DNA of 64,000 nucleotides from NCBI RefSeq assembly GCF_015326965.1, contig NZ_CP017659.1, positions 558,001-622,000 of the forward strand, given 5' to 3'. Positions 3,262 through 31,498 of this stretch are shown here, piece after piece; the first letter of the stretch is position 1, and each line of letters opens with the position of its first letter. The position numbers and the translations under genes were made by a program. Source of the stretch: Paenibacillus sp. JZ16 (GTDB taxonomy: Bacteria > Bacillota > Bacilli > Paenibacillales > Paenibacillaceae). The notes beneath the pieces were generated by a model. That model saw only the letters and a program-made list of their open reading frames with translations. It had not been told where the DNA came from and ran no database searches.

Positions 3262-3273
3262 TAACTTCTCCGT

Positions 3274-4893: not shown

Positions 4894-4919
4894 TTGATCA
4901 AAAACGTCCTTTCTTTCTT

Positions 4920-5609: not shown

Positions 5610-5634
5610 CACTCTCTCCTCCTTAATAGGCACT

Positions 5635-5657
5635 TAAATGTAATTATTACGATTATA
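5635..5657 (-). promoter_or_regulatory. Zur box for the methyltransferase-NikABCDE operon
   Basis: Palindrome with core GTAATTATTACGA, matching the Bacillus Zur operator TCGTAATNATTACGA with one mismatch. It lies 26 bases before the TTG start at 5609. A TATAAT on the minus strand (5657-5652) overlaps the box edge, so a bound repressor would cover the -10 element. Confidence 0.85.
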
Positions 5658-7753: not shown

Positions 7754-7783
7754 CCATATCACCTTCTTAAAGTCATTATATTT

Positions 7784-8366: not shown

Positions 8367-8391
8367 ACATCTGTCTCGAGGAGTGATTCTT

Positions 8392-9393
8392 ATGTCAATT
8401 CAACAGACCGACCCACGTATTCCCGTCACGGTACTGACAGGTTTTCTCGGAGCCGGTAAAACGACCTTACTAAATCATGTATTAACAGCGGAGCATGGCG
8501 AAAAAATAGCGGTCATTGTCAATGAGTTCGGTGAAGTTGGTATCGACAACCAACTTGTTGTAGGAGCGGATGAAGAAATCTTTGAAATGAACAATGGCTG
8601 TATCTGCTGTACGGTACGAGGTGATCTCATTCGTATTCTTAATCAGCTTAGGGATGCGAAGCTGGGTAATGGTGATCGCAAAGCAGATTTTGAACGTGTG
8701 CTCATCGAGACGACAGGTTTGGCAGATCCTGGCCCGGTTGCGCAGACCTTCTTTGTCGACCCTGAAATAGCTGATTTTTATAAGCTGGATGCGATTGTTA
8801 CGGTTGTGGACGCAAAGCATGTTGAGCAGCATTTGGACGACGGACATGAAGCTCAGGAACAAGTCGCCTTTGCTGACGTACTTTTGCTGAACAAAACGGA
8901 TCTTGTTTCAGAAGACGAACTACAGAGGTTGGAACGTCGCCTTCGTACCATGAACTCGGCAGCCAAGCTATATCATACCCAGCAGTCCAAAATTGACATT
9001 AACCAAATTCTCGGGATAGGTGCTTTTGATTTAGAGAAGAAGCTGGAGATCGAACCTGGATTTCTGGAAGAAGAGCATGATCATGAACATGACGATGAAG
9101 TAACCTCTATTTTCTTTCGGGAAACTCGACCTCTCGACTTAAAGAAAGTCGAACGTTTTCTCAATGAATGGTTGGTAGACCATGGCGTAGACACATTCCG
9201 ATATAAAGGCGTTTTCAACATTAAGGGAGTCAAGAAACGAGTCGTTTTTCAGGGCATTCATATGCTGTTCAGTTCATATCCTGACAGGGACTGGAGACCA
9301 GATGAAGTGCCAACCAGCGAATTCGTGGTGATCGGTCGAAATCTTGACGAGAACTGGTTCCATGAACAGTTTGCTGGTTGTGTAGCCACTTAA
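8392..9393 (+). CDS. COG0523-family GTPase (CobW-like putative metallochaperone)
   Basis: Second COG0523 GTPase, 333 residues, the first plus-strand gene here. It shows Walker A (GFLGAGKTT), CxCC motif (GCICCTVRGD), Walker B (VLIETTGLADP) and guanine motif (LLNKTD). A short acidic/histidine stretch (EEEHDHEHDDE, about residues 223-233) precedes the C-terminal CobW domain. The ATG at 8392 follows GAGGAGTG with good spacing; an upstream GTG at 8383 lies inside that site. It is expressed from its own Zur promoter and ends before a strong inverted repeat. It is more YjiA/CobW-like than the ZagA-type gene at 30311, so a different client is likely. Confidence 0.92.
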   Translation: MSIQQTDPRIPVTVLTGFLGAGKTTLLNHVLTAEHGEKIAVIVNEFGEVGIDNQLVVGADEEIFEMNNGCICCTVRGDLIRILNQLRDAKLGNGDRKADFERVLIETTGLADPGPVAQTFFVDPEIADFYKLDAIVTVVDAKHVEQHLDDGHEAQEQVAFADVLLLNKTDLVSEDELQRLERRLRTMNSAAKLYHTQQSKIDINQILGIGAFDLEKKLEIEPGFLEEEHDHEHDDEVTSIFFRETRPLDLKKVERFLNEWLVDHGVDTFRYKGVFNIKGVKKRVVFQGIHMLFSSYPDRDWRPDEVPTSEFVVIGRNLDENWFHEQFAGCVAT

Positions 9394-10034: not shown

Positions 10035-10493
10035 CTATTCCATAGTCTCTTCTTTCTCCAGTGCCTGGCATACTTCACATATCCCATAGACCTCAAATCG
10101 ATGTCGCAAGACTCTGTAGTCCCCAGGTAATTCAAGACCATGATCCATTGGGCAGTAGTCAAAGGGAAGCGTTTTTTCACAATTGACGCAAATCAGATGA
10201 TGATGGTGGTGAGTCAGGCAGTTCTCTTTGAATTTTAAACCTCCGTCCATAAAGTAGAAATGTTCCAAAACCCCCATCTCACTTAACATACGAAGATTAC
10301 GATAAACTGTATCCAGACTCATGCTTGGGTAATGAACGGACATTTGATCGTAGACATCTTTGGGCGATAAATAGCCATCGTGATCGGCGAAAATTTGGGC
10401 TAATGTTCTTCGTTGTTCCGTCACTCTCCATCCATTTCGCGCCATGGTATTCAACATATCTTTAACTTTGGTTTTGTTCTCCTTCATAAACAT
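10035..10493 (-). CDS. zur: Fur-family repressor, probable Zur
   Basis: Fur-family regulator of 152 residues with an N-terminal winged helix (RVTEQRRTLAQIF...YPSMSLDTVYRNL) and a C-terminal dimerisation domain. The sensing segment is histidine-rich (LTHHHHHLICVNC), and two CxxC pairs (CVNC, CEVC) form the structural zinc site. Its location inside a cluster with a dozen Zur boxes makes Zur the best assignment rather than Fur or PerR. A GAGGAAGGG precedes the ATG. No Zur box was found in its own upstream region (10494-10658), so it may not be autoregulated. The second Fur homologue at 25156 lacks most of the sensing histidines. Confidence 0.85.
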   Translation of the reverse strand: MFMKENKTKVKDMLNTMARNGWRVTEQRRTLAQIFADHDGYLSPKDVYDQMSVHYPSMSLDTVYRNLRMLSEMGVLEHFYFMDGGLKFKENCLTHHHHHLICVNCEKTLPFDYCPMDHGLELPGDYRVLRHRFEVYGICEVCQALEKEETME

Positions 10494-10658: not shown

Positions 10659-11513
10659 CTAATTTTTTTTGAAAATCATCTCTTCGGGCCTCCAATAGAG
10701 AAGCGCTGCCTTAAAACGATGTTTGTACAACAAAATGCCGTTCTCTTCCGTAACAAACTGTCTGAGAATCTTTTCCGTTGCTTTTCGGTCATAGTTAGCT
10801 TCCAAAATAACGCCTAAATTGTCCTTCAGCAGCTGTTCTTCATTCTCATAGCGATAGATTCTTTCCAAATTTACAATTTTGCAATTTACATCGATACCAA
10901 GTTCATACAGAAGATTGGTTAAATAGATATAGTCCCGTCGCTGAAATTTGACTTTGTAACCAAGCTCTTGATGGATCTCCCACAAATGCGGTTTTTCAGG
11001 CCCGGTTGTCAGCCCGATAATCGCCCACCGTTTGGAAGAGTTATTCATATTTAGAAGCGCCCGATCGATCTCCTGCATCCGATAATAACAATTGATCCCA
11101 AAAACAACATCAAACTGTTTTTTTGGTACAGAGTCTTCCCATTTAGAATGAATGAACCGTATATTTTGGTGACCTTGCCGCTTGGTATCCTTCTTTAAAT
11201 GATTGAGCACACTACGTGAACTGTCCACGCAAACAAGCGAGGATGCTTTATCAGCAGCAGCAAAGGTATAGTTCCCCCATCCCGGTCCAATCTCCAAGAC
11301 GTCATCGGTAGGCTCGATAAATTGAAGAAGCTCTCGCCGAATATCAGCTGCATAGTCATCCAATGCATCTGTTTTTTTGGGAATAAATCCTTCCCAGAAG
11401 GATTCCTCCTTGGCATCGTCGCTCATTCGCTCCGGCAGATTGCCGTTCCAATCCTTCATCCCTTCCAGCCATAGCTGCTTAAAATTCATATCAAAGCGGA
11501 CGCCGTGATACAT
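10659..11513 (-). CDS. Class I SAM-dependent methyltransferase linked to a FecBCD-type importer
   Basis: A 284-residue methyltransferase with motif I DVLEIGPGWGNYTFAA (about residues 95-110), motif II VCVDSS and a later FDVVFGINCYY. The C-terminal half (about residues 170-284) has no motif that I recognise and may form the substrate domain. It is the last gene of the operon with MTase 14693, FecB, FecD and FecE, 30 bases after fecE. The function could be synthesis or modification of a chelator, or processing of the imported complex. I compared it with nicotianamine-synthase-like CntL from memory and saw no convincing match, but a structural comparison would be needed to exclude one. Confidence 0.82.
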   Translation of the reverse strand: MYHGVRFDMNFKQLWLEGMKDWNGNLPERMSDDAKEESFWEGFIPKKTDALDDYAADIRRELLQFIEPTDDVLEIGPGWGNYTFAAADKASSLVCVDSSRSVLNHLKKDTKRQGHQNIRFIHSKWEDSVPKKQFDVVFGINCYYRMQEIDRALLNMNNSSKRWAIIGLTTGPEKPHLWEIHQELGYKVKFQRRDYIYLTNLLYELGIDVNCKIVNLERIYRYENEEQLLKDNLGVILEANYDRKATEKILRQFVTEENGILLYKHRFKAALLYWRPEEMIFKKN

Positions 11514-11543
11514 ATTTAGTTTCCCCCTCTATTCCTCACTCGG

Positions 11544-12317
11544 TTAAGTCCATACCGGCTCAACCGCAGTCATTTTCAATCCGTATTTTGCAGAGGCAAC
11601 CTCCACTTTTACGCCGTAAACCGTCTCCATATTTGTACAGGTAAACACCTCCTCAGGTCGACCGGAAGCATACACTTCCCCGTCCTTGAGCATGTATATT
11701 TCATCCGAATACCGAGCAGCCAGCTCTAGATCGTGTAAAATCAGGATCACTAGGATGCCCGAATGTTTTGAGAGCTTGCGTACTAGCTCCAACACTTCGA
11801 GTTGATGGCGAATATCGAGTGCTGAAGTCGGCTCATCCAGTAATAGCAAATCCGGCTGTTGTGCCAACGCGCGGGCTATCCAAACTTTTTGCCGCTCTCC
11901 CCCGCTTAGCTCGTCCAGATAACGCGTTGTATAGTGATCCAGATGAAGGTCGGACAGGAGGGTGCCCACAATATGAAGATCTTCTGATGACACTCCCCAT
12001 CGAATGTACGGCTTTCGCCCGAGCATGACCGTTTCCATGACAGTCAGCGGAAAACTGGATGCCGTATGCTGAGGAACGTAAGCTTGAATTTTAGCCAAAT
12101 CTCTGGGTTTGAGGGAATATACGTCTTTTCCCCTAAGCCAAACCGTTCCCTTCTTAGGCGGAAGAATGGAAGCGATGCTTTTGAGCAATGTCGTCTTCCC
12201 TGCGCCGTTAGGACCGACAATACTGACCACCCGGCCCTTTTCCAGATTCATGTGAATATTTCGTAATATGGAGTTTGAACGGTATCCAAATGACAAACCC
12301 GTTATTTGTAAAAACAA
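11544..12317 (-). CDS. FecE/BtuD-type ABC ATPase for metal-chelate import
   Basis: ATPase of 257 residues with Walker A (GPNGAGKTT), Q-loop (YVPQHTASSFPL), signature (LSGGERQKVWIARA), Walker B (LLLLDEPTSALD) and H-loop (LILHDLELA). It matches the siderophore/cobalamin/heme importer ATPases. It lies 12 bases after the cognate permease. Because the FecBC pair at 22523-24548 has no ATPase of its own, this protein could also energise that permease; this is inference only. Confidence 0.93.
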   Translation of the reverse strand: MFLQITGLSFGYRSNSILRNIHMNLEKGRVVSIVGPNGAGKTTLLKSIASILPPKKGTVWLRGKDVYSLKPRDLAKIQAYVPQHTASSFPLTVMETVMLGRKPYIRWGVSSEDLHIVGTLLSDLHLDHYTTRYLDELSGGERQKVWIARALAQQPDLLLLDEPTSALDIRHQLEVLELVRKLSKHSGILVILILHDLELAARYSDEIYMLKDGEVYASGRPEEVFTCTNMETVYGVKVEVASAKYGLKMTAVEPVWT

Positions 12318-12329
12318 GACTTCCCCCTC

Positions 12330-13436
12330 CTAGGTCCAATACTCCCGGCGCTTCTTGACCAGTAAATAGATGAAAAATGGTGCGCCGAAGAAGGAAGTTA
12401 CAATTCCAACGGGGATTTCAATCGGCGTAAGGAGCAGCCGCGCCACCGTATCCGACGTAAGCAAGAGCAAGGCGCCGATCAAGCAAGAGCACGGTAATAA
12501 ATATCTATAGTCGGTACCGATTATCATTCGGCTGATATGCGGGGCAACAAGCCCGATAAAACCGATAATGCCTGTAAAAGCAATGGTTGTTGATGCCAGA
12601 AGCGTCACCGTCACCAAGCAAACCCAGCGTATATGCTTCACTTTCACTCCGAGCGTGAGTGCTACCTCCTCCCCGGAGATGAGAGCATTCAAATCCCATG
12701 CATATTTCATCAAGACTAATAGCGCAAAGGCGGACAGCGGCAAGAGAATTTCCAGCACATGCCAACCGGAGCCCCAGAACCCCCCCATTAACCAAATAAT
12801 CAGATCTTTAAGCGCATCGTTGTTGGAAAAATACTTAAGAGCCGATACGCCGGCCGAGAATAATTGACCAATCGCTACACCCGCGAGTAGCAAGACCGTA
12901 GTTGAGCTGTTTTTCATACGAGCAATACCGTATACAACTCCTACTGCCAAACACCCGAAGAGAAAAGCGTTAAAAGCAATCAGCCATGGTCCGCTGTGAA
13001 CGAGGTTCATACCGAATACGCTAGTGCCCGCCACGATCGCAAGTGCGGCTCCGAAGGCTGCTCCACTTGAAACCCCCAGGGTAAACGGATCGGCTAGAGG
13101 ATTACGCAGCAATGCCTGCATGATCGTACCCGCTGCGGCCAGCGATATACCGGTCACCACAGACATCAGGACTCGGGGGAGCCGAACCTCACGTACGATA
13201 TACACATTCATTTCGTCAGCACCGGCGCCAGTCATCATTGCCCAGAGCTCTTGAAGGGGCACCGTCGCCGAGCCTTTGGTGATCGCTGCTCCTGCTGTAA
13301 TGATCAATAAGATCAGAAGCAATATGAGCAGCAAGAGCTTACGTAATGATCTACCACGGTAAATCGATTCCATTTGACGATCTGAGGACATCGACTCCAA
13401 TGGGATATCGTTGTGATGGATTGATTTTTCCATCAT
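12330..13436 (-). CDS. FecCD/BtuC-type ABC permease
   Basis: Permease of 368 residues with about ten membrane segments. The family signatures LPRVLMSVVTGISLAAAG..MQALLRNPLADPFTLGVSSGAAFGA and GFIGLVAPHISRMI are present. A 40-residue hydrophilic N-terminal extension (HHNDIPLESMSSDRQ) precedes the first membrane helix, which is longer than usual. It overlaps the binding-protein gene by 4 bases. It acts as a homodimeric channel with the adjacent FecE. Confidence 0.93.
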   Translation of the reverse strand: MMEKSIHHNDIPLESMSSDRQMESIYRGRSLRKLLLLILLLILLIITAGAAITKGSATVPLQELWAMMTGAGADEMNVYIVREVRLPRVLMSVVTGISLAAAGTIMQALLRNPLADPFTLGVSSGAAFGAALAIVAGTSVFGMNLVHSGPWLIAFNAFLFGCLAVGVVYGIARMKNSSTTVLLLAGVAIGQLFSAGVSALKYFSNNDALKDLIIWLMGGFWGSGWHVLEILLPLSAFALLVLMKYAWDLNALISGEEVALTLGVKVKHIRWVCLVTVTLLASTTIAFTGIIGFIGLVAPHISRMIIGTDYRYLLPCSCLIGALLLLTSDTVARLLLTPIEIPVGIVTSFFGAPFFIYLLVKKRREYWT

Positions 13437-14608
13437 TCCGTCTCCTTAAACGAGTAGTACCAAATCCCTTGATAAGGAACATCCAGCCATTCTTCAAAAT
13501 ATTCCTTGGCATATGCTTCAGGATTAACATCTTCAAATAGGTCAGGATACAGCCACTTGGAAAGTTGCAAAACACCGATATATCGTTTGTCTGAACCAAT
13601 AAAATTAGTATGAAAAAAATAAACTTCCCTGTCTTTGCCTGCATTCAACTTCTTCAAGGATGAAATTTTCATGATATTGGCGAACGCCTCATCAAGCGGT
13701 TTGGCATCCATCGTTTCGTACCCACCTAGCCAAGTACCATGTAGTGTAACGACATCTGGATTTCGTTTGAGCACATATTCTTCATCGACCATGATCGTTG
13801 TGGAAGCCTCCGCAGGATTCCATTGTAGATCGGCTGCATCTTTTCCACCCGCCAAAATTGTGGCGTAACCTTCACCTACGCCGGTCTTACCATCCAGTGA
13901 CTGGCTTGGAAAAACTCGATAGCCGCCATTGGAGTTGAGAAAACCGGCTGACAGTGCCAGAACACTTTTTTTCTCGCTTGTATCTATAGATTGAATTCGT
14001 TTTGCCGGAATACTTTCAATTTCATGCCTCCATTCCAGAAATTTAGCGGCCCTTTCTTCTTTACCGAACAGCTTACCCAGCAGTTTCCATTCTATATCCG
14101 TCTGCTCTGGCAAGTAATTGTTCATGCGTACGACCTTAATGCCAGCCGGCTCCAACTTTTCCTCCAGTTTTTGATCAGGCCGATTCGTGTAGGTGAATAC
14201 CACTTCAGGCTTTAAGCTAAGTATCGCCTCCAAATTTACCTGTTCCGTTTCTCCAATGTCTGGCAATTTGTCAAAGCCAAGATAAGGATTGTGTTTGATC
14301 GTATTGTCACCAGTGGCCACTACGCGGTCTTCCGCTCCCAACAGTTTAATGGCTTCTGCTGTATTTCGATTAATAACGACGGTTTTCTGAACCGGGATAT
14401 TTAGTGTAATTTCTTTGCCACTTGTATCGGTAAAGGTCCAACTTTTTAGTTCCGTATCTTTTTGTGAACTCAGCTGTTGACTTTCTTGATTTGTTACAAT
14501 TGCATCATCATTATTGGTTGTCGAACATCCCGCTATAAGCAAAGTTAGAATCATTGCAAATGCGAGTCTAATGATAACGTTCGACAAGAATTTTATTTGA
14601 ATAAACAA
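13433..14608 (-). CDS. FecB/BtuF-type metal-chelate binding lipoprotein
   Basis: Class III solute-binding protein of 391 residues with lipobox (LTLLIAGCS). The binding fold starts at GKEITLNIPVQKTVVINRN and includes EAILSLKPEVVFTYTN, the conserved hinge region of the family. The start is a TTG at 14608 with GGAGGAG upstream; the protein begins FIQIKFLSNVIIR. A Zur box lies 22 bases before the start, in the short gap after the methyltransferase gene, so this importer can be transcribed separately from it. The ligand is unknown: siderophore, zincophore, cobalamin-like or tetrapyrrole complexes are all compatible. Confidence 0.9.
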   Translation of the reverse strand: MFIQIKFLSNVIIRLAFAMILTLLIAGCSTTNNDDAIVTNQESQQLSSQKDTELKSWTFTDTSGKEITLNIPVQKTVVINRNTAEAIKLLGAEDRVVATGDNTIKHNPYLGFDKLPDIGETEQVNLEAILSLKPEVVFTYTNRPDQKLEEKLEPAGIKVVRMNNYLPEQTDIEWKLLGKLFGKEERAAKFLEWRHEIESIPAKRIQSIDTSEKKSVLALSAGFLNSNGGYRVFPSQSLDGKTGVGEGYATILAGGKDAADLQWNPAEASTTIMVDEEYVLKRNPDVVTLHGTWLGGYETMDAKPLDEAFANIMKISSLKKLNAGKDREVYFFHTNFIGSDKRYIGVLQLSKWLYPDLFEDVNPEAYAKEYFEEWLDVPYQGIWYYSFKETE

Positions 14609-14629
14609 AGTGTGTCTCCTCCGGAATTT

Positions 14630-14652
14630 TAAATGTAATATTTACGATTAAT
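14630..14652 (-). promoter_or_regulatory. Zur box before the FecB-FecD-FecE-MTase genes
   Basis: TAAATGTAATATTTACGATTA matches the Zur operator with centre ATGTAATATTTACGA. It is internal to the methyltransferase-fecBDE gene string, giving that string two levels of Zur control. Confidence 0.82.
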
Positions 14653-14692
14653 GAACATCTAGCATGAAAAATAAATACTCTTAAGCATTCCT

Positions 14693-15460
14693 TTAACCTA
14701 CGCTTTCCTTTCGATGACCAACCATAATCATTCGCGGTGAATGCCTCTTATCATAATGTTGTCCATCATAATTTCCGTAAATTATATCCAATGTAAGACC
14801 GACTTTTTTCAGCATATCTTCCAATTTCTCTGGACCATATAGCTTGACGCGTTCCGAATATCGACGAGTAAGATGGTTAGATCCTTGAACTACAATTTCC
14901 TTCATAACGAAACCGCTTAAAATGCGGCGGGTTTCCGAGATGAGGTTTCCCTCCTCTACCCGCTCCGAAAAAGGAACCAGGTGATCTGTTGTGTATTCTG
15001 CGTTCATATAATCGATAATGAACCGCCCTCCCGGTTTCAATGCCTTATGGATTTGCCGTAACACCGTTAACTGCTCGCTGTCCTCTTCAAAATAACCAAA
15101 TGAGGTAAATAAATTGACAACGGCATCAAATCGCTCCTTAAACATCTTACTTTCTGGTAAAGCCCGCATATCGCATTCAACCCAATTTACAAGTTCATTA
15201 GGGTCGGAGGCCCTAGCTTCCTGGAGCAGCTCCGAGGAAAGATCCACACCTGTTACGCGATAGCCTGCACGTGCAAGTGACATTGCATGTCTCCCCATAC
15301 CACAACATAGGTCGAGGATTTTACCTTGAGATGGAAGCTTCAGCCACTCCATCATTCTAAATACTTCTTTTTCAGCCTGGCGTCTATCCCTATGACGGTA
15401 GATTAGCAAATAATCCTTGCCGAAACTCTCTTCGTACCATTTATGTAACGTCTTTTCCAT
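14693..15460 (-). CDS. Class I SAM-dependent methyltransferase heading the FecBDE operon
   Basis: A 255-residue methyltransferase. Motif I is ILDLCCGMGRHAMSLARAGY, followed by VTGVDLS, VECDMRALP, FDAVVNLFTSFGYFEEDSE and LKPGGRFIIDYMN; this series is the YcgJ/UbiE-like pattern typical of small-molecule methyltransferases. It is controlled by two tandem Zur boxes (15546 and 15598). The gene is the first of the string MTase-FecB-FecD-FecE-MTase. The substrate cannot be deduced. Together with the methyltransferases at 4920 and 10659 it suggests chelator biosynthesis or modification in this island. Confidence 0.85.
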   Translation of the reverse strand: MEKTLHKWYEESFGKDYLLIYRHRDRRQAEKEVFRMMEWLKLPSQGKILDLCCGMGRHAMSLARAGYRVTGVDLSSELLQEARASDPNELVNWVECDMRALPESKMFKERFDAVVNLFTSFGYFEEDSEQLTVLRQIHKALKPGGRFIIDYMNAEYTTDHLVPFSERVEEGNLISETRRILSGFVMKEIVVQGSNHLTRRYSERVKLYGPEKLEDMLKKVGLTLDIIYGNYDGQHYDKRHSPRMIMVGHRKESVG

Positions 15461-15545: not shown

Positions 15546-15568
15546 TAATTGTAATAATTACGATTAAT
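15546..15568 (-). promoter_or_regulatory. Zur box, proximal of two
   Basis: TTAATTGTAATAATTACGATTA: near-perfect match (centre TTGTAATAATTACGA), 86 bases before the methyltransferase start at 15460. Confidence 0.88.
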
Positions 15569-15685: not shown

Positions 15686-15722
15686 GCCTCCAAGCAGACA
15701 TTCACATTGTCTGCCCGGAGGC
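15686..15722 (-). terminator. Rho-independent terminator of the CobN operon
   Basis: On the minus strand a GC-rich stem (TGCCTCCGGGCAGACA against TGTCTGCTTGGAGGC) is followed by TTTTTT. It lies 36 bases after the CobN stop codon. Confidence 0.9.
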
Positions 15723-15758: not shown

Positions 15759-18700
15759 TTAATCGTGAGGACCCTCAAGTTCTCCTTCAAGCTCCAAAAA
15801 ACGATCCCGTAACATGTTCAATTCTTCCTCTGTCGCCTTCCAATAGTTCCGTTGATGACTTTCAAGCAGCGTTTCCAACATACCAGAGTAGGCCCAGCTG
15901 TTATTTTCAGACATTTGCTTGCTGCGTTGTTCGTTGGCCACATATTCATGATGAACCGCTGAGAAAATCCAGGAGTCTACTTGGTTGGTCGTCGCTGCAA
16001 GCCCCAACAAGTTTTCTACTCGGTCTGCTGCTTTCTGGGCTCCATGATAATCATGCTTTAGCAAACCGTCTATCCATTTGGGATTGAGCAGACGGGTTCG
16101 TACTCCACGATGGACAGAGTTTCTTACTTCTTCAGTTAAGATTTGCTCCCGCGTGGTATCGCTAATATATATTTCCGCCTTGACGCCTTTGGTGATTTCT
16201 ACCGATTTCGCCAAGCCTCCAAAAAACTCATAATAATGATCCAGATCGGTAATTTCATGTTCATGGTTGCTCCGAATCTGTGAAACAATATCAACGGCAG
16301 CCAAGTTCGCCGCATACAAATCATACATATCCTTGCCCCTGTAATCGGAGCTGTACACATGCTTCAGGCTGTTCATGAAAGCTGCGCCCAATTGGTCTTC
16401 TTCTTCCCACTGCTTGGTCTCGATCAGCTTTGTTACCGAGGCTCCATATTCTCCTGCGGCAGGCCCGTATATGCGGGCACATGCCAAGTCCCAAGCCTCG
16501 TCATGCTCTGCCCCGGCGCTGCGTAACTGCTGATACAACCTCTCCGAATGCTTTTTGAACCGGTTTTGATCAACCGGCTCCTCCAGCTCAGAAATTTCTT
16601 TAAAGAGACGGTGAAGCGTTGATAGCTGGTCCGGGAACATGTCGCGGAAAAATCCACAGATATGGACCAGGACATTCAGTCGCGGCCTCTTCAGCTCTGA
16701 TAGCGGAATAATTTCATATTCCACCTGCTTATGGTGATCCTGGTCCTTAACTCTAACGCCTAGATAAGCCAGAATCTGCCCCAACGTCTCCCCTTGTGTC
16801 CGGGACGTTTCCAAGCCCCACATAACCAGCGCGGATGTTTCCGGATATGACTTTTGCGCTGCATCATACAAATTCAAGGTGTTCTCCGCAATCCTCCAAC
16901 CACTCGCAAGAGCTGCACGGCTTGGTATGGACCTTGGGTCAAACTGTACCAGATTGTTTCCGGACGGCAGAACCTCCGGATTCCGAAAGCAGTCGCCTGC
17001 AAGACTAACCGGTATATATTTACCGTCCATGGCCCTAAGAAGATTCGTAAGCTCCAGATCTGCCTTCGTAGACTGATAAGCCTTTAAGCCGAGCTCCCAA
17101 ATGTTCTGCCATTGTGATTGTTGATCGGCTGATCCTTGCGGAGGTTCAGGAACTTCCCGGGTTTGAACAAAGGTTAACACAGCTTTCTCCACATACTCAT
17201 CCAGCGTTCGCAGCCTGCGGATATCCTGGGCTTCCAGCAGCTCATCATAATCCCAGCCCATCGAACGCGCATATAATCTCTGCAGCGATCCGTAGGTTCC
17301 CCGTTCATGGCCAAAAATCATGCTCATATGCTGCGCCGCCTGCTCATGTGTATACCCCTCGCCTAATATATGCAGGCCATCAGGAATCATGGATCTTCGG
17401 ATTCGGTACAGCTCGGATTCCAGCGATTCAAGACTAGAGGATTCAAGAAAAAGCGCAGCTGCCTGCTCCTGCAACATCTCCCACAGATCAGGAAGTCGTG
17501 CAGGATTCAGCTGTTCCGCTTCCCGATACTGATGCAGCAGTGTTTCCAGGCCGGCGTATTCTCCGTATAACCCGGATACTGTGAATGGAGGGGATTGGTA
17601 TCCTATCAAGGTAGCATGGGATCTTCGCTTCGCAATCATGGCTTCGGAGGGGTTGCCGACATAATACGCGTAAAAATGCGGAATATCCCGAATCAATGCA
17701 TCAGGTAAACAATCCCCCGACATGCCGCTTTCTTTGCCTTCCAAAAATTCAAGCGTACCATGGGTTCCCACATGCAAGATCGCATCAGCCTTGAACTCAT
17801 CACGAAGGTATTGGTAAAAAGCCAAATACTGATGGTGCGGAAGGAGACTTTTATCATGGTAAGCTGCCTCCGGATGCTCATGTACACCCCTGCTAGGCTG
17901 GATACCGATGAACAAGTTGCCGATCCGAAGGCCGGGAATTTTGAAATCGCCGTCCTCGGTCGTCATGATGTCGCCTGGCACTTCGCCCCACTGCTGAACA
18001 AGCTCTCTTTTCCGCTTATTCAAGACCTGATTGCTCTGCTCATACGATGTATTTTTATAAGTCGGAAGATGATCGGGCCAGTTGTCGTTGGACCACACTG
18101 CGGAATTTATGGTTCCATCCTGTATAAAACGCTCTTTTAATTCGAAACCAGAGTATGTCTCGGTATCATAACCATGCGCCTTCATCGCCGTGAGGATGCG
18201 GGATATCGATTCGAAGGTATCCAGAAAGGAGGCCTGGAACAGATGTCCTTCCCCTGGAGGGTAGTTATAGCCGATAATGGCGATTCGCTTCTCGGATTGC
18301 TTCTTGGATCGGAGATTCAGGTACCGCTTTACACGACCGACCACCCGCTGCGCTCGATCTTCGATCATACGGAGCTCTTTGGCATCAAACCGCATGTCCT
18401 CGTCATATCCAAGGCTGGATAACGCGGCAACCGGATGCGTCTCAATGCTCCCGTCGAGCTCAGGCAGCATCATTTGAACCAGAAATTCGGAAGGCGTCAA
18501 GCCTTGTCTGGAGCTTTCCCACTCCTGCCGTTCCCGGCGCGTCAGGAAAAACGGATGGAACATCGGAGCGTCCACTTCTTTTAGTAACGCCAGGATTTCA
18601 TCGCTCTTTCCCCCCGTAGGTCCGGCACCCAGGCGGAACGGAACAAAGTTTACGATCAAGTCTACCTTGCCTCCATGAACGCCCCCATGCATCAGCAAGG

Positions 18701-19496
18701 TTCGCAGCCGATTCGGTTCAACATCCGACAAAGAAGTGAATACGACAGGAAGAACATTGGCAAACTCTCGAATGCTCTGCATCATGCTGCTGACGATATC
18801 TCCGGTGTGGAGCGGGTAGCTGTGACCCATAAAAAGTATGGCAACTGTTGGATCATCCTCACGGGCCGGCATGGACGCCCGAAAGGCCTCCAAGGATTCA
18901 AATGACTGCGGGTTAGAGGGATCATAGATGCTCAGCGACTTCAGGGCAAAGGGCGGCTCGACCGGCGGCCAATCCGTTTCCTTTCCGAAGCAGGTGGCAA
19001 TGTAGCCAAGCATATGGTGTAAATTGGGAACCCCTGCATTTCTCCAATATGCGACCAAGGTCCGGTGATGCCTGAGATTATCTTGCTGCTCGGTCGATAT
19101 TGAAGATGTAGAAGGATGTCCACTTGAGGTTGTTGACGGATGTCCACGATGGCCTGCGCCGGCAAGATCGTGATACCTCAATGAACCCAGCCTATATAAA
19201 TCCTTAAGCCGCTCCCCTTCCCCTCCTACAATCACTTGCTCCGCTTTAAGACCGATACAAAGGTCATGAATACGGGAAACGGTCCGGGCAGGGCTGCCGT
19301 GCGGATCGTGGATGATAAAATCCGCTTGATTTACGGCTGTCTCGAGCCAGCTCCACTGTGCCTCCGACAAGGTTCCTTCTATATTAAATACAGATAATGA
19401 AAGGCGACTGCGCAAAGATGCATCCCACTTCTTCTTATATATGAACGATAAATCCTTCATGGCCGCATGGGATGTCGTTAAGACCGTGATCTTCAT
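15759..19496 (-). CDS. CobN/BchH-like large chelatase subunit in a zinc-responsive operon
   Basis: Protein of 1245 residues, matching CobN/magnesium-chelatase H in length and in the conserved segment AILHVGTHGTLEFLEGKESG (about residues 578-597), followed by LPDALIRDIPHFYAYYVGNPSEA and further CobN-type blocks. In the families known, this subunit holds the tetrapyrrole and the metal, and the ChlI/ChlD AAA+ motor drives insertion. No cobalamin, heme or chlorophyll gene is present here, no B12 riboswitch fits upstream, and the operon starts at a Zur box with a FecB/FecC import pair. CobN-like genes in zinc regulons have been noted before, without proven function. Likely roles are insertion of a metal into, or removal from, an imported tetrapyrrole-like chelate. 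Confidence 0.9.
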   Translation of the reverse strand: MKITVLTTSHAAMKDLSFIYKKKWDASLRSRLSLSVFNIEGTLSEAQWSWLETAVNQADFIIHDPHGSPARTVSRIHDLCIGLKAEQVIVGGEGERLKDLYRLGSLRYHDLAGAGHRGHPSTTSSGHPSTSSISTEQQDNLRHHRTLVAYWRNAGVPNLHHMLGYIATCFGKETDWPPVEPPFALKSLSIYDPSNPQSFESLEAFRASMPAREDDPTVAILFMGHSYPLHTGDIVSSMMQSIREFANVLPVVFTSLSDVEPNRLRTLLMHGGVHGGKVDLIVNFVPFRLGAGPTGGKSDEILALLKEVDAPMFHPFFLTRRERQEWESSRQGLTPSEFLVQMMLPELDGSIETHPVAALSSLGYDEDMRFDAKELRMIEDRAQRVVGRVKRYLNLRSKKQSEKRIAIIGYNYPPGEGHLFQASFLDTFESISRILTAMKAHGYDTETYSGFELKERFIQDGTINSAVWSNDNWPDHLPTYKNTSYEQSNQVLNKRKRELVQQWGEVPGDIMTTEDGDFKIPGLRIGNLFIGIQPSRGVHEHPEAAYHDKSLLPHHQYLAFYQYLRDEFKADAILHVGTHGTLEFLEGKESGMSGDCLPDALIRDIPHFYAYYVGNPSEAMIAKRRSHATLIGYQSPPFTVSGLYGEYAGLETLLHQYREAEQLNPARLPDLWEMLQEQAAALFLESSSLESLESELYRIRRSMIPDGLHILGEGYTHEQAAQHMSMIFGHERGTYGSLQRLYARSMGWDYDELLEAQDIRRLRTLDEYVEKAVLTFVQTREVPEPPQGSADQQSQWQNIWELGLKAYQSTKADLELTNLLRAMDGKYIPVSLAGDCFRNPEVLPSGNNLVQFDPRSIPSRAALASGWRIAENTLNLYDAAQKSYPETSALVMWGLETSRTQGETLGQILAYLGVRVKDQDHHKQVEYEIIPLSELKRPRLNVLVHICGFFRDMFPDQLSTLHRLFKEISELEEPVDQNRFKKHSERLYQQLRSAGAEHDEAWDLACARIYGPAAGEYGASVTKLIETKQWEEEDQLGAAFMNSLKHVYSSDYRGKDMYDLYAANLAAVDIVSQIRSNHEHEITDLDHYYEFFGGLAKSVEITKGVKAEIYISDTTREQILTEEVRNSVHRGVRTRLLNPKWIDGLLKHDYHGAQKAADRVENLLGLAATTNQVDSWIFSAVHHEYVANEQRSKQMSENNSWAYSGMLETLLESHQRNYWKATEEELNMLRDRFLELEGELEGPHD

Positions 19497-19550
19497 TCTG
19501 TTTTCCTCCTCCTATCCAAGAACGATAGAATCATGCTTGATTAGGGTTAT

Positions 19551-21515
19551 CTAACCCAATATGGTTCGAACCGTGCCAGTAAATCCATCTTCGTTCAAGT
19601 GTTCGAGTACTCGATACTCAGCACCCAATGCTTCAGCCAATTCTTTAGAGCGTCCCAATTTAACAAAGCCCTGCTCCGTATCAATGACCAGACAGGAGAT
19701 CCCGGCAAGCCGGATCCAGCTTGCGGCCTCCAGGCATTCATTCCAAATGTCCGAATAAACCGACAATCCTGAAGGACTTTGGTTCGCTCGGCCATCCGTA
19801 ACGAATATCAACGTCGGTATCGTATCATGATTTCTTCGTTTCTCCGCTTGAAGCACCTTATAGGCCAGGTTAAGCCCGGCTGCCAGAGGCGTCCTTCCTC
19901 CAGTCGGAATATCGCGGAGATGCTTTGACGCTGTATCGATGCTGCGTGTAACCGGAAGCACAAGCTCAGCCTCGTCCCGTCTGAACGCGATCATGCCAAT
20001 TCGGTCTCGCTTCACATAAGAATCCCGGAGCAGATGAAGGATGCCTCCTTTGACCGCTGTCATGCGCTTTCGGGCCAGCATCGAACCGCTGGCATCAACC
20101 ACAAACAATAACGTAGACCCAACGCGATTCTCTCTTTTCTTGAGACGCAAATCATCGAGTTCAATGGCAAACGCGACGCCGTCCTTTTTGGTACGGATCA
20201 ACTGATAGGGAGCCGCTGCGCGGATCGTAGCATCAAAAGCCACATCGGTTCGCTGCTTCCTGTTCGGGTATACAGCCCCTACCGATCTGCCTCTCTTCTG
20301 AACCGAACGCAGATCATGTCGCTTTCCCGAGCCCTCATATTCTAACTTACGCTTCATGTTCAACTTCAAGGGCTCGATTGGATACGCCTCGTCAGGAAAC
20401 AGCACCTGATCATCCATTCGATCACTGGATACATTCTGAGGATCATTAGGATCCTCCACAACCGGCATTTCTGTTCTGCTTTGTTTGAAGGCGTCTTTCG
20501 CCTCATTCGTATTGGTCCTCCCATCCCCGTGATCGGGATGCTCTGCAGGGGAGTGGGAAGAATTCGTTTGATCGGGTGATGGATTCGTCTGATCGCCTGC
20601 ATCCGGTTCAAGTGGATGACTCCCAGGGGCGTGGGGGTTCTCGAATGCAATTCGCATTCGATGAGGAAGAACATACTCGGCGATCTCTCGGATATCCTCC
20701 ATGGTTACTTTGGTGCGCCCATCCCAGGCGGCTGCCGCTTTAGCCCCTTCAACAAGAGAGAGCTCGGCACGGGCGCTCGCAATCCCCGCTTCATATGCGA
20801 TTGAGGAGGCTAGCTGAATCATTTCAGCGCTTACCTGTATGTGAGGAATCAATTGTCCTGCCGCTTGGATTTGCAACCGGAGTGCATCTTCCTGACGCTG
20901 ATATCGGCTACGGAAGGCATAGGGGTCCTGCTCGAATTGTAATCTTCGGCGTATGACCTCGGCTCGATCCTTGTGATCTATCAACTCGGTCAACGTTACG
21001 CAGAATCCAAAGTGATCCAGCAGTGAAGGCGAAAGAACGCCGTCTCCCAAATCCATTGCCGCAAGCAGCATAAATCGGCTTTCTCGAATTTCTGATATCC
21101 CTTCTCGCTGCAGATAAACCCAGCCGCTCGAGCGTGTATTGACAATCTCTCTGATGAGCACTTCGGGCACTAGATTCATATGATCGGCCAGCAGCAGTTG
21201 ACCATCGGCAATTTCTAACAAACCCGGGGAACGTACGAGCCTGCCGCGGTCGATGGCGGCCGTCATATCGAATGAGCCGAGAAGCCGATCCGCTGTGATG
21301 TTGACAGGTACGGATATTTTCAGACGGTCAGGGATCATCGAAGAAACTGCATGCAGCAGATGACTTTTACCTGATCCTCTAGAACCATGAATAAGAACTC
21401 CGCCAATCGCAGGATTCACAGCATATAGCAGAAGCGCCCGCTTCGCTTTCTCTTGTCCAACGATTCCGCTGAATGGATATACTGAAAGCTGCTCCATTTC
21501 CCCCACCTTCATCAT
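19551..21515 (-). CDS. Magnesium-chelatase D-like subunit (AAA plus VWA domain)
   Basis: Protein of 654 residues: an N-terminal AAA+ domain ([17 protein letters not shown]-loop GSRGSGKS), an acidic/polar low-complexity linker (about residues 295-375) and a C-terminal von Willebrand A domain with MIDAS motif DASGSM and later FVTDGRAN. The Walker B region reads LLLADHMNL instead of a canonical DE pair, so this AAA domain is probably inactive in hydrolysis, as in BchD. It would form the motor with the ChlI-like protein and use the VWA domain to dock onto CobN. Its start overlaps the ChlI stop by 4 bases. Confidence 0.92.
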
Positions 21516-22443
21516 GCCTGTACCATTGCTGTTGAACGCAGTAACGCATGTAATCGCTGTTCGATACCGCCGGACTCTTCAAACGGCTGCCGTCTCATCC
21601 GATGAGGCAAGACCAGGTATGCGGCTTCCTGCATATGTTCATGGCTAATTGAATCTTGGCCCCGCCATGCTGCCAGGGTGAGCGCTGTTTTGATCAGGGT
21701 AATGTCGGATCGATGCCCCTCAACTTCCAGCGCAATTCCGATTTTTGCTGCCAGCTCCAGCATGTCGTCTGTAACGTCAATCTGATCCAATCGCTCCCTT
21801 GCCTGAAGGATCTGATTCAGAACGCGCTCCTGTTCGGCCTCATAATGCGCTGAAAATGATGCAGGGTCACGCTCAAAATCCATACGTCTGCGGATGACAA
21901 GGGCACGCTCGCGAACATCCTTCTCTCCGCCGATGTCGACCGACAGCGCGAAACGGTCCAGTAGCTGCGGCCGCAGGTCACCTTCTTCCGGGTTCATCGT
22001 CCCCACCAACAGAAATCGCGACGGATGAGAATAGGATATCCCTTCTCGCTCTACCGTGTTGATTCCCATTGCAGCCGCATCCAGCAATACATCGACAATA
22101 TGATCGTCCAACAGATTGATCTCATCGATATATAAAATATGACCATGTGCCGCTGCCAGCAGACCCGGTTCGAATTTCTTCTCTCCTGTCTTGATTGCGT
22201 GCTCAATATCGAGAGCACCAACGACGCGGTCTTCCGTTGCACTTACAGGCAAGTTAATGACTTTTAGATCAGGCATGAGCCCAGCCAATGCCCGTACAGC
22301 TGTAGATTTTGCCGTTCCTTTCTCACCTCGGATCAAAACCCCCCAAGCTTCGGATTTACGACGTTCAAAATGAGCGCCAGTTTCATTCTCGATTGACCTA
22401 CAATGGCTGTAAATGGATATTGCTGCTCTACGTCTTTCAAACA
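21512..22443 (-). CDS. Magnesium-chelatase I-like AAA+ ATPase, frameshifted in a G6 run
   Basis: The active AAA+ motor subunit: Walker [17 protein letters not shown], Walker [23 protein letters not shown], sensor region [18 protein letters not shown]. The family N-terminus is encoded in another frame: a TTG at 22443, nine bases after AAGGAG, gives [15 protein letters not shown] and NVVNPKLGG up to the C6 run at 22339-22344 (G6 on the coding strand). One added G there joins the two frames into a normal ChlI of about 310 residues. The ATG at 22447 only opens a non-homologous frame. The defect may be a sequencing error or a real mutation; the rest of the gene shows no decay. Confidence 0.85.
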
Positions 22444-22522
22444 TCACAACTCCTTATGGCTTCATTAATCCCGATACTCGGGCCGTGACACGTTGGCGAA
22501 AGGTCCTGTGTCTCAATCCGAT

Positions 22523-23515
22523 TCATGCCTTTTTCCTCCTTAACAGATACAGGAAAAAGGGCGCTCCCAGCACACCCATGATGATTCCGACCGGTAGCTC
22601 CATCGGGGAGAACATAATTCTTGCCAGCGTGTCGCAAATCGTCAGAACGGCAGCCCCTAACAGCGCTGTGGAAGGAATCAGAAACCGGTAATCCCCTCCG
22701 ACAAGCAGCCGGGCGACGTGCGGTATGATCAGCCCGACGAATCCCAGAAGGCCTGCGATGCTGACGGCACTGGCTGCAAGCAGCGTTGCGATCGCAGTTA
22801 TCCATAATCGGGAAAGTTCCACCCGTATCCCTAAACTCCGAGCCGTGGCATCTCCGAGCATCATAATGTTCATTTGCTTGGAGAAGAGCATCGAGAGAGC
22901 TAGACCGATTAAAGAGTATGGGAGGATGGTCGATAGGTCGGGCCAGCTTTTAGCTGCAAGTCCGCCTACCATAAAGAGCAAGGCCCCTTGCACCCTGTCG
23001 CTGTAAAAGGTAAGCATTGCTGATATCCCGGATCCCAAAAAGGCGGAGACTGCCACACCTGCAAGGACAATTCTGAGCGGGTTTACTCCGTCTTTCCAAG
23101 ACAGCAGATAGATGATGAATGCGGCAAGCGTCGCTCCGATGAATGCGGCAGGCGTCAACAGATAATCATATTGCGGCATAACGACAAGCAGGAAAATTCC
23201 GAACAGCCCGGCCCCGCTAGAGACCCCAATTATATGGGGATCTGCCAGCGGATTCCGCATAATTCCTTGCAGCAAAGCTCCTGAAACGGCAAGGTTCGCT
23301 CCAACAAGCATTGCAACAAGCGTTCGTGGCAGTCGGATATTCCAGATAATCTCCCGGTTCACTCCGGGCAGATCATGTTGCAATACGGCCGCAGCAATAT
23401 CTCGAAGCGGAACCATAACAGCGCCGGTGGCTATGCTAAAAAGGGAAGCTGCTATCGCTAAAACCATGAATATGATGATCACGGACACAGAGCGAATGGA
23501 TTTATTCGGCATCAC
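22523..23515 (-). CDS. FecCD/BtuC-type ABC permease
   Basis: Permease of 330 residues, about nine to ten membrane helices, with LPRTLVAMLVGANLAVSGALLQ, MRNPLADPHIIGVSSGAGLFGI and the cytoplasmic GFVGLIIPHVARLL motif of metal-chelate importers. It overlaps the FecB gene by 14 bases and lies 79 bases before the ChlI-like gene. No ATPase gene follows in the operon, so it must borrow one (11544 or 31749 are candidates) or use one encoded elsewhere. Confidence 0.92.
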   Translation of the reverse strand: MMPNKSIRSVSVIIIFMVLAIAASLFSIATGAVMVPLRDIAAAVLQHDLPGVNREIIWNIRLPRTLVAMLVGANLAVSGALLQGIMRNPLADPHIIGVSSGAGLFGIFLLVVMPQYDYLLTPAAFIGATLAAFIIYLLSWKDGVNPLRIVLAGVAVSAFLGSGISAMLTFYSDRVQGALLFMVGGLAAKSWPDLSTILPYSLIGLALSMLFSKQMNIMMLGDATARSLGIRVELSRLWITAIATLLAASAVSIAGLLGFVGLIIPHVARLLVGGDYRFLIPSTALLGAAVLTICDTLARIMFSPMELPVGIIMGVLGAPFFLYLLRRKKA

Positions 23516-24548
23516 CGAAGATCTCCGGATACACCAGCTTGGCTAAATACTTCAGCGATTCATCATAGTGAAGGCCTGGATTCGTGAGGAATAAATCGGA
23601 TGGTACGACAATCACTCGCTGTTCTTTGACAGCTCCTATAGAAGCCCATGCAGGATTGCTCTCGAGTTCCTCCTTAATTTTCTTATCCCCCACAGCCTTT
23701 TGTCCGTGGATGATCATAAAGATATAATCCGGATTCTGCTTCGCAAGCGTCTCCATGCTGTAAGGGGACGTGGTTGGACTGTCAGGCGATGATGCTAGAG
23801 TCTCTGCCATGTTGCTCAGGCCAAGCATTTTGGCTATCTCCAGTCCTGTTGTTCCGTCCTTCTGAATGGAAATTCCACCGGGGGTGACGTTTAGATTGAT
23901 AAAGGTACGATGATCTCCCGGCAATTGCTGCAGAACTTCATTCACCCGGTCATCTAATGTCTTCAGCTTTTCCTGCAGCTGTTCTTCCGTCCCGGCAATC
24001 TTCGCCATCCATTCCGCCTTTGACTTCATATCCTCGTAGCTGGACATGCTCATTAGCGCCACGTCAATGCCACTGCTCTCCAGCGACTTTACAAGCTCCT
24101 TATGAAAACGTGCTTGCCCGATGACCAGATCCGGTTTTAAAGCCACCACCTGCTCCAAGCTAATCTGACTTACGGTTCCGACAGACGCTACCGCTTCTGC
24201 TTCTTCAGGGATCGAAACGCCCAGGGCTTCCATCCGCCCTACCGCTTGTCCTCCCACAGCATACAGCAGCTCAAGGAATTCGGGTGACAGCACGACGATT
24301 CGTTCCGGACGCTGTTCGAGCGTAATCGTACGATTCGTCGCGTCTTGGAAAGTGATATAAGCTTCGTTGACTGCTGGGGGCTCGGTTTCTGTTTCCGATG
24401 ACTTCAGTTCTTTTTGGTCATGAGCTTCTGTCTCCTGGCTGCCTGAAGTTTCGGTTCCATTGCACGCTGACGCAACAAGTGCGAATACGACGATAATACA
24501 GATCGTCAAGATGTAATGTGTTTTTTTCTTGCTTAATTGCAAAGACAT
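23502..24548 (-). CDS. FecB/BtuF-type metal-chelate binding lipoprotein of the chelatase operon
   Basis: Solute-binding lipoprotein of 348 residues with lipobox (ALVASACNG), an acidic linker (residues about 35-60) and a class III binding domain starting ITFQDATNRTITLEQRPERI. VVALKPDLVIGQ is the typical hinge motif. It is the first gene of the operon with the permease and the ChlI/ChlD/CobN-like chelatase, 62 bases after a Zur box. This operon logic suggests the ligand is the substrate or product of the chelatase, for example a tetrapyrrole or another metal macrocycle. Confidence 0.9.
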   Translation of the reverse strand: MSLQLSKKKTHYILTICIIVVFALVASACNGTETSGSQETEAHDQKELKSSETETEPPAVNEAYITFQDATNRTITLEQRPERIVVLSPEFLELLYAVGGQAVGRMEALGVSIPEEAEAVASVGTVSQISLEQVVALKPDLVIGQARFHKELVKSLESSGIDVALMSMSSYEDMKSKAEWMAKIAGTEEQLQEKLKTLDDRVNEVLQQLPGDHRTFINLNVTPGGISIQKDGTTGLEIAKMLGLSNMAETLASSPDSPTTSPYSMETLAKQNPDYIFMIIHGQKAVGDKKIKEELESNPAWASIGAVKEQRVIVVPSDLFLTNPGLHYDESLKYLAKLVYPEIFGDAE

Positions 24549-24609
24549 GGACTCGTTCTCCCCTTATGACTAAATCCTTTGATTTAGCAGCTAGTAACGA
24601 CATTCTATG

Positions 24610-24632
24610 TAGAATGTAATTTTTACGATTAT
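24610..24632 (-). promoter_or_regulatory. Zur box for the FecB-FecC-ChlI-ChlD-CobN operon
   Basis: TAGAATGTAATTTTTACGATT (centre ATGTAATTTTTACGA) matches the Zur operator. A TATAAT on the minus strand (24633-24628) overlaps it. The gap between the neighbouring genes is under 100 bases and leaves no room for a cobalamin riboswitch. Confidence 0.82.
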
Positions 24633-30310: not shown

Positions 30311-31498
30311 CTATGCAATCCAAGGCAATGGATTCTCAAAGCGCGCCCAATTCAAGCTCATTTCCTCATCGGTAAGCAGACACTGATCCAACGCATCCTC
30401 AACATTCTCTCGATCCATGTCGATCCCGATCATCACCAACTCGGTTTGCCGATCTCCCCAATCGGTGTCCCATTTCGCCCGAACATCCGCCTCGGTTCGT
30501 AAAATCTCTTCTCTTTCGGCTGCAGGAAGAGCGGCAACCCAATATCCAGCTGGTCCAAACTGAATCGAGGGGCCGGCTTGGCTTAAGCTTGCCGCAACAT
30601 CTCCATCGGCAGCCAACCACACCAGTCCTTTCGCACGCACTACCTGTTCAGGCCATTCCCCCATGAATTCAGCCAACCGGGAAGGATGAAAGGGCCTTCT
30701 GCGACGATACACGAAGGAGCTTATTCCATACTCTTCGGTCTCCGGGACATGCGTTTCTTTTTGCAATTCCTGGATCCATCCGGCTGACATGCTTACCCGT
30801 TCAAAATCAAACAATCCCGTATTTAAGATCTCAGACGGATCGACTTGCCCATTCCGGGTACGAATGATCTTGGCGCTCGGCTGCAGCTTCCGAAGGACAG
30901 CTTCCAGCTTGTTCAATTCCTCGTCATCCACGAGATCACATTTATTTAGCAGCAGTACATTGCAAGTTTCGATCTGATCGATAAGCAAATCCACGACATC
31001 ACGATCATCTTCGCTTCCTGCGCCCTGATTGCGGTCCAGAAGGCTCTGACCGGATGCGAAATCCTGCCAGAATCGATTAGCGTCCACGACGGTGACCAAA
31101 CAATCGAGTTTAGCCAGATTCGTTAAATCAATCCCTGTCTCTTCGTCGGCATATGTAAATGTCTGAGCGACCGGGATCGGTTCGCTGATGCCTGTGGATT
31201 CAATCAGAATGTAATCAAACCGTTGTTCATTGGCGAGTTTTTCAATTTCCTCCATTAAATCATCTCGCAGCGTGCAGCATATGCATCCGTTGGACATCTC
31301 GACCAGCTTCTCTTCCGTGCGGGATAAGGACGCCTCTCCCTTAACCAGCGCTGCATCAATGTTAATCTCGCTCATGTCATTTACAATGACAGCGACCTTC
31401 AGGCCTTGCCGGTTATTCAAAACGTGATTTAATACCGTTGTTTTTCCCGAACCTAGATACCCGCTGAGTACCGTTACGGGGATTTGTTGTTGTGTCAT
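30311..31498 (-). CDS. zagA: ZagA-type (YciC) COG0523 GTPase, zinc metallochaperone
   Basis: Protein of 395 residues, close to Bacillus ZagA/YciC in length and sequence: GYLGSGKTTVLNHVLNNR, VIVNDMSEINIDAALVK, the CxCC motif in MSNGCICCTLRDDLMEE, LIESTGISEPIPVAQTF and the guanine motif LLNKCD. The C-terminal CobW domain contains RAKGLVWLA. In Bacillus this GTPase is Zur-controlled and supports the zinc-dependent folate enzyme FolE during depletion. It is the first gene of a unit with DUF3024 and an AAA+ ATPase, 53 bases after a Zur box. Confidence 0.94.
   Translation of the reverse strand: MTQQQIPVTVLSGYLGSGKTTVLNHVLNNRQGLKVAVIVNDMSEINIDAALVKGEASLSRTEEKLVEMSNGCICCTLRDDLMEEIEKLANEQRFDYILIESTGISEPIPVAQTFTYADEETGIDLTNLAKLDCLVTVVDANRFWQDFASGQSLLDRNQGAGSEDDRDVVDLLIDQIETCNVLLLNKCDLVDDEELNKLEAVLRKLQPSAKIIRTRNGQVDPSEILNTGLFDFERVSMSAGWIQELQKETHVPETEEYGISSFVYRRRRPFHPSRLAEFMGEWPEQVVRAKGLVWLAADGDVAASLSQAGPSIQFGPAGYWVAALPAAEREEILRTEADVRAKWDTDWGDRQTELVMIGIDMDRENVEDALDQCLLTDEEMSLNWARFENPLPWIA

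Follow-up and report, generated by a model that had tools for sequence, protein, structure and literature searches.

A Zur-box operon of Paenibacillus sp. JZ16 that joins a FecB/FecC-type importer to a CobN-ChlI-ChlD chelatase: a possible zinc form of a metal-harvesting system

The window analyzed here is a 64,000-nucleotide stretch of Paenibacillus sp. JZ16 (positions 558001-622000 of NZ_CP017659.1, the single 7.42-Mb contig of the genome). It contains a minus-strand operon that runs in the order fecB-fecC-chlI-chlD-cobN from 24548 to 15759 behind one Zur box and combines genes of a FecB/FecC-type importer with those of a CobN-ChlI-ChlD chelatase. We give an even chance to the reading that this operon represents the zinc edition of a system in which FecB, FecC and FecE import a zinc-bearing macrocycle and CobN-ChlI-ChlD removes the zinc. 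The operon, the Zur box, the subunits, their motifs and the link between regulator and FecB are read from the sequence, from which we infer the ligand, the role of two FecB histidines and the direction of the reaction (removal versus insertion). The operon consists of the following features (window coordinates).

24611..24631, no strand assigned: palindromic Zur-type box, 15/20 against the Bacillus Zur consensus, 63 bp before the fecB start
23502..24548, minus strand: fecB, FecB-type substrate-binding lipoprotein with H149 and H281 (PF01497, 111 bits)
22523..23515, minus strand: fecC, FecC-type permease (PF01032, 316 bits)
22448..22522, minus strand: fecE (ATPase gene) remnant left by near-complete deletion; its first ten codons match fecE of locus L018
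21512..22447, minus strand: chlI, AAA+ motor subunit, 5' part frame-disrupted at 22339-22344 (AAA_5 and AAA_lid_2)
19551..21515, minus strand: chlD, AAA+/VWA subunit (VWA_2, AAA_lid_2 and a DASGS MIDAS motif)
15759..19496, minus strand: cobN, full-length large chelatase subunit with H579 and H1087/E1090 (PF02514, 1046.7 bits)
15686..15722, minus strand: terminator-like hairpin after cobN (15 pairs, then a T-run)

Neighboring genes of the operon overlap or are separated by gaps of at most 75 bp. Because the Zur box lies ahead of fecB and the terminator-like hairpin follows cobN, 15759..24632 probably forms one transcription unit, as a preliminary description of this DNA had treated it; its placement of the FecB and FecC genes under one Zur box also stands. 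A site as good as the operon box was found in 1 of 300 shuffled promoters. Across the window, the Zur core (at most two mismatches) matches 12 times versus 2.45 expected, with none of 100 shuffles reaching 12, and 12 sites score at least 15/20 versus 0.65 expected. Since Zur boxes also precede znuC, an rpmG gene (identified by eye), a COG0523 GTPase gene (30311-31498), two other FecB genes and methyltransferase genes, the operon lies in a zinc-starvation island. A promoter box that is also conserved in relatives predicts membership of the operon in the Zur regulon and supports the zinc control that had been claimed for it.

CobN occurs patchily, in 15 of 295 Paenibacillaceae genomes, in 6 of 398 genomes of the class (two of the six being distant CobN types) and in 2 of 397 genomes of one other order. 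A scan of named genomes yielded 79 loci (L numbers), the best 79 of 159 confirmed. In a midpoint-rooted tree of 103 CobN-like proteins, built by a quick method, the window CobN belongs to a group of 78 with full support that is distinct from the B12-context clade, BchH and the group that unites HmuS with ExbB/DUF2149-linked proteins. The B12-context clade is fully supported, contains eight of the nine B12-context rows and excludes the window protein; the ninth row (L127) is a long-branched member of the HmuS/ExbB group. Within the group of 78, a Bacilli group (30 rows, support 93) lies beside a mostly clostridial sister group (27 rows, support 91), neither value being starred. The usual Bacilli order is fecB-fecC-fecE-chlI-chlD-cobN, and clostridia often have fecB-fecC-fecE-cobN-chlI-chlD. 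The Bacilli operons often adjoin znuABC, rpsN, COG0523 or Zur genes.

These operons are preceded by three kinds of regulatory site. Among 29 readable Bacilli loci (30 rows minus L042, whose contig starts inside chlD), 24 carry a Zur box, and 20 of these boxes score at least 15/20 with p <0.01. At L033, L038, L039 and L041, the box lies inside the called open reading frame (ORF), the start of which was taken as called too early. The remaining five Bacilli loci (L040, L052, L063, L065 and L101) have no Zur box and carry a Fur box that fits 12-13 of 14 positions (p ≤0.01 each). In the sister group, a cobalamin riboswitch lies ahead of 19 of 25 readable operons (27 rows minus L046 and L066, at contig ends), sometimes with intervening genes, as judged from Rfam, positions and model R1, which was built from seven riboswitches of five of the sister-group loci. 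The 19 include L049, whose riboswitch is cut by the contig end, and L078, whose riboswitch was found by Rfam only; L056, L059, L060, L062 and L070 are not riboswitch-led, and a weak match at L109 (E 0.0067) was left uncounted. Model R1 detected a cobalamin riboswitch leader at none of the 29 Bacilli loci. Near-identical loci (L038/L039/L041 and L077/L088) are each counted singly in these tallies and are not independent.

The type of regulator is matched by a pair of FecB residues. Histidine is present at both positions 149 and 281 in 24 of 24 Zur-type loci, in none of five Fur-type loci and in none of the 16 riboswitch-type loci with a FecB. L059 and L062, whose riboswitches are not leaders by gene position, lack FecB, and the histidine tally therefore stands. 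Both residues are invariant in alignment A2 (11 sequences). Two held-out genomes, G578 and G453, fit the pattern (2/2), with Zur boxes of 19/20 and 18/20 and both FecB histidines. Five regions were fetched for this hold-out, of which only L140 and L141 count; L142 comes from the same genome as L063, and L143 and L144 encode distant CobN types (30% and 37% identity) without a Zur or Fur box.

CobN retains residues that flank the metal in a known dechelatase. In HmuS, His538 of the motif HFG(T/A)HG and His1209/Glu1212 of LSLDHxxEFMGG flank the bound cation (PMC12583661). The window CobN has H579 in HVGTHG, and H1087 and E1090 in LDHYYEFFGG, at the equivalent positions. Histidine at position 1087 is found in two of two BchH rows, two of two HmuS-type rows, 26 of 30 Bacilli rows and 49 of 53 other rows; aspartate occupies it in eight of nine B12-context CobN proteins and six of seven ExbB-linked rows.

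The occurrence of the same operon under Zur, Fur and a cobalamin riboswitch makes metal supply the common denominator, and the simplest reading of such control by zinc, iron and cobalamin is that the importer-chelatase operon provides a scarce metal taken from an imported metal-macrocycle. In the zinc edition, Zur would leave the promoter upon zinc shortage, and FecB would bind a zinc-containing macrocycle, such as a porphyrin or similar tetrapyrrole, outside the cell, its H149 and H281 probably contacting the zinc from two sides. FecC would carry the zinc macrocycle into the cell with the aid of an ATPase. Within CobN, the ring would then lie between H579 and H1087, and zinc would be expelled for use by the cell at the expense of ATP spent by the ChlI-ChlD motor.

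Genes beside some relatives point to tetrapyrroles. At the Fur-type locus L052, two NEAT-domain genes and a class B sortase gene diverge from the operon. NEAT and sortase genes also adjoin the operons of L070 and L072, the NEAT gene of L072 lying between the riboswitch and fecB. A NEAT profile, built from four of the proteins that it later found, matched at five of the 79 named loci (L052, L059, L062, L070 and L072). Among the neighbors of sister-group copies are a CbiK gene at L071 and a partial CbiK match at L050, as well as genes for corrinoid adenosyltransferases at L045 and L100. The NEAT neighbors of related operons argue against an alternative in which FecB imports a small non-ring zinc chelate resembling an opine or siderophore and the chelatase complex releases its zinc, as does the action of the characterized CobN/ChlH/HmuS superfamily members on tetrapyrroles (PMC12583661). 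A non-ring ligand would accord with the closest solved structures of FecB by sequence, which are mostly siderophore binders, and with the other Zur-box transporter sets of the island, but we regard it as very unlikely.

Several observations weigh against import and demetallation of a zinc macrocycle. The NEAT profile found no match at any zinc-type locus among the 79 named loci and none at four of the five Fur-type loci, and the Pfam NEAT domain is absent from 17 of 18 CobN-positive genomes, that of JZ16 included. The Zur boxes of L044, L067 and L076 are weak (p 0.03-0.04); the L067 operon also lies downstream of znuCBA and rpsN, which have boxes upstream. At L019, an 18/20 Zur box is located 0.7 kb upstream, before the preceding Fur-family gene, and both the riboswitch and the Fur box searches give a hit at the clostridial locus L058. 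The four Bacilli exceptions with aspartate at CobN position 1087 (L076, L077, L080 and L088) are all zinc-type, which weakens a simple porphyrin-versus-corrin reading of this position. Moreover, the regulator changes only twice on the tree, providing one or two independent pairs, and the Zur/histidine pattern, although clear, is thus not statistically independent. The macrocycle model put forward in the preliminary description consequently survives in part: HmuS-like CobN residues, Fur- and riboswitch-type relatives and the NEAT/sortase neighbors of three of them favor it, and the absence of NEAT from zinc-type loci and the damage to the local copy described below do not.

A role in cobalamin synthesis was ruled out. 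CobN is the sole PF02514 match in the genome, which contains only four TP-methylases and no CbiC, and no corrin-ring pathway was found in it. Among 30 Paenibacillaceae genomes, CbiC occurs in none of 15 with CobN versus 8 of 15 without CobN (p 0.002); within the genus of JZ16, the counts are 0 of 3 versus 8 of 15 (p 0.22). Neither of the two cobalamin riboswitches of the genome belongs to the operon; the genes that follow them look by eye like btuFCD-cobT-cobU-cobS and a class II ribonucleotide reductase gene. CobN scores 636.5 bits against the NCBIfam CobN cobaltochelatase model (cut-off 822.05) and 803.5 bits against BchH (cut-off 829). The lack of CbiC, the small number of TP-methylases, the location of the riboswitches and the position of CobN outside the B12-context clade together bear out the earlier claim that the operon does not serve cobalamin synthesis. 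No heme, chlorophyll or corrin biosynthesis gene was present among the 31 window proteins that were family-tested, the remaining window ORFs not being family-tested and the chlorophyll genes not being searched for genome-wide, and no Rfam family, the B12 riboswitch included, reached its gathering score in the window, both as previously stated.

The riboswitch-run sister operons, tied to cobalamin and in some cases located beside CbiK or adenosyltransferase genes, suggest another route, in which zinc shortage would trigger the import of a cobalt macrocycle or corrinoid and the freed cobalt would replace zinc in zinc enzymes. The best NCBIfam model for FecC is BtuC (279 bits, below the cut-off of 461). 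In Pseudomonas aeruginosa, a Zur-controlled importer takes up cobalt-pyochelin, and zinc starvation is eased by cobalt (PMC13083405). The cobalt route is nevertheless unlikely, given that a riboswitch controls a distinct set of JZ16 genes that look by eye like btuFCD, and that the FecB residues of all 24 zinc-type loci are unlike those of the riboswitch type. To our knowledge, moreover, no enzyme is known to take cobalt out of a corrin.

The chelatase could also work in the opposite direction, inserting zinc into a porphyrin, perhaps one methylated by nearby methyltransferases, to generate a zincophore that FecB would retake. Metal insertion is the reaction of the homologous Mg- and Co-chelatases, bacteria produce zinc coproporphyrin (PMC6104308), and two methyltransferase genes with Zur boxes (14693-15460 and 10659-11513) are located nearby. 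These genes have separate promoters, however, and the same family does not recur beside cobN in relatives; committing zinc to a ring during shortage would also require an exporter, and none recurs in the operon. We therefore find zinc loading quite unlikely. The gene at 14693-15460 encodes an S-adenosylmethionine methyltransferase and has its own Zur boxes at 15546 and 15599; it was rejected as an operon member, as a terminator and these two boxes intervene and no BLAST match lies beside cobN in the relatives surveyed. An unrelated-looking methyltransferase-like gene (cluster 15) follows cobN at L038, L039, L041 and L090 and weakly matches only the gene at 10659-11513.

The operon in the window is damaged, a point that also weighs against the zinc-macrocycle reading. 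The nearest relative, Paenibacillus campinasensis (L018 and L067, on one contig), has a CobN 70% identical to that of the window and a complete fecE gene in the interval from fecC to chlI. In the window, the corresponding gap measures 75 bp and keeps the first ten fecE codons (7/10 residues identical, E 0.10), and the tail of fecE is also recognizable by eye; at this E value, the position between fecC and chlI carries the argument. Thus, the FecB/FecC import unit reported earlier is present, but the deletion of its ATPase gene had been overlooked, and the arrangement of substrate-binding protein, permease and ATPase in one operon, complete in relatives such as L018, L033 and L055, is not kept here. 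An ATPase-free importer as a natural design was ruled out, since L033 and L055, which at first appeared to be without fecE, do have it.

The chelatase is affected as well. The conserved N-terminus of ChlI (YPFTAIVGQ..., the first thirty-odd residues) and its P-loop, GEKGTAKST, which is invariant in 10 of 10 aligned sequences, lie in different reading frames. The switch of frame coincides with a stretch of six minus-strand G residues (22339-22344) and could reflect either a genuine lesion or a homopolymer error. The three-subunit chelatase described before is therefore represented by CobN, ChlD and a ChlI-like ORF, but appears not to be intact at the ChlI N-terminus. With its own ATPase gene gone and chlI frame-disrupted, the local copy appears impaired. 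This would not hold if a different FecE-type ATPase were to substitute and either an alternative chlI start or a frameshift were to compensate, or if the G-run reflected a sequencing error. The possibility that this copy is a decaying or dead operon, whatever the function of the family, comes close to an even chance and is compatible with the zinc-macrocycle reading. The fecE remnant, the chlI frame change and the patchy occurrence in the family favor decay. By contrast, cobN, chlD, fecB and fecC are open, the terminal branch of CobN measures 0.22 versus 0.18 in the nearest relative, a G-run is a usual site of sequencing error, and another fecE with a Zur box is located at 11544-12317.

This fecE belongs to a second FecB-FecC-FecE set (13433-14608, 12330-13436 and 11544-12317; Zur box at 14630). 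The set and the two methyltransferase genes come immediately after the operon (10659-15460), and the preliminary description mentioned neither. The second set is followed by the methyltransferase-like gene at 10659-11513 and by a member of the Fur family (10035-10493), which shares 84% identity with Fur-family genes found close to other cobN operons. A Zur box at 35757 accompanies a third FecB/FecCD/ABC set (34682-35737, 32596-33648 and 32060-32563) and an MFS gene (35790-37007). Oligopeptide-type ABC transporter genes (SBP_bac_5, BPD_transp_1 and ABC_tran) and a methyltransferase gene (4920-5633) occupy 645-5633 beside a Zur box at 5635; this set could be a metallophore importer. The window also contains folE2 (5761-6714) and two COG0523 GTPase genes (6734-7762 and 8383-9393), with Zur boxes at 8215 and 8344. 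Beyond JZ16, L071 (13655-14152) and nine other loci have a conserved lipoprotein-like gene of ~180 residues, without a Pfam match, beside the sister-group cobN. A Comamonas plasmid (L113, 361-9390) combines CobW-CobN, AAA and VWA genes with a divergent FecBCE set, and no corrin gene is present in the fetched stretch. On a Runella slithyformis plasmid (L117, 1119-11836), a CobN-like gene, a TonB receptor gene, and ExbB and DUF2149 genes lie within a hyp hydrogenase cluster, possibly a nickel edition of an HmuS-type system.

Known systems resemble the operon in part. HmuS of the Bacteroidota hmu operon is likewise a CobN-like protein beside a metal-macrocycle uptake system, shares the H...H/E metal-flanking residues with the window CobN and removes a metal for nutrition (PMC12583661). 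HmuS belongs to a separate clade that excludes the window protein, and it is membrane-bound and NADH-dependent and acts on iron, according to the same report, unlike the window system. In the Bacteroides locus, HmuS is accompanied by HmuY, a TonB receptor, and ExbB-like and DUF2149 proteins in place of FecBC, ChlI and ChlD. Most remaining bacterial and archaeal CobN-like sequences are considered not reliably annotatable in that paper. In P. aeruginosa, the CobN-like PA1923 is under Zur control without a proven role (PMC4542158, PMC8531726, PMC11761036 and PMC13083405), consistent with the earlier remark that such genes had been noted in zinc regulons. PA1922-PA1925, compared here by description only, comprise a TonB receptor, CobN, an ExbD-like and a hypothetical gene and lack FecBCE, ChlI and ChlD. 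The Mg chelatase BchH/ChlH-ChlI-ChlD shares the three-subunit plan and His1087, and ChlH is the top solved-structure match of CobN; BchH/ChlH forms a separate clade, its model cut-off is not reached by CobN, and the tested window proteins include none for chlorophyll. Aerobic cobaltochelatase CobN, the usual annotation of such genes, is a homologous large subunit that differs in its clade, in its predominant aspartate at position 1087 versus histidine in the window protein, and in the corrin pathway, which was not found in JZ16. Isd heme uptake combines NEAT proteins, sortase B and a FecB/FecC-type importer. The window FecB reaches no NCBIfam cut-off and has IsdE as its best model (96 of 299 bits), and three related operons have NEAT and sortase genes; unlike Isd, JZ16 has no NEAT gene, and a chelatase, as opposed to a heme oxygenase, is proposed to free the metal. 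The word "chelatase" does not occur in a Zur review (PMC6103462), and a literature search with thin coverage of subscription journals found no paper on the Bacillota operon and no described uptake system that uses zinc tetrapyrroles as a zinc source.

Three metal or cofactor switches on the same importer-plus-chelatase operon point to metal extraction as the common job. Tentatively, and with somewhat less than an even chance, FecBCE and an ATP-driven CobN-ChlI-ChlD dechelatase would constitute a modular metal-harvesting machine with zinc, iron and cobalt editions that are set by the regulator and tuned by two FecB residues, the zinc edition mining zinc tetrapyrroles. The two residues provide a prediction for metal choice that is testable with a single purified protein. 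If the proposal is true, tetrapyrroles would be a usable zinc store, and the ChlI/ChlD motor could serve a metal-removing large subunit.

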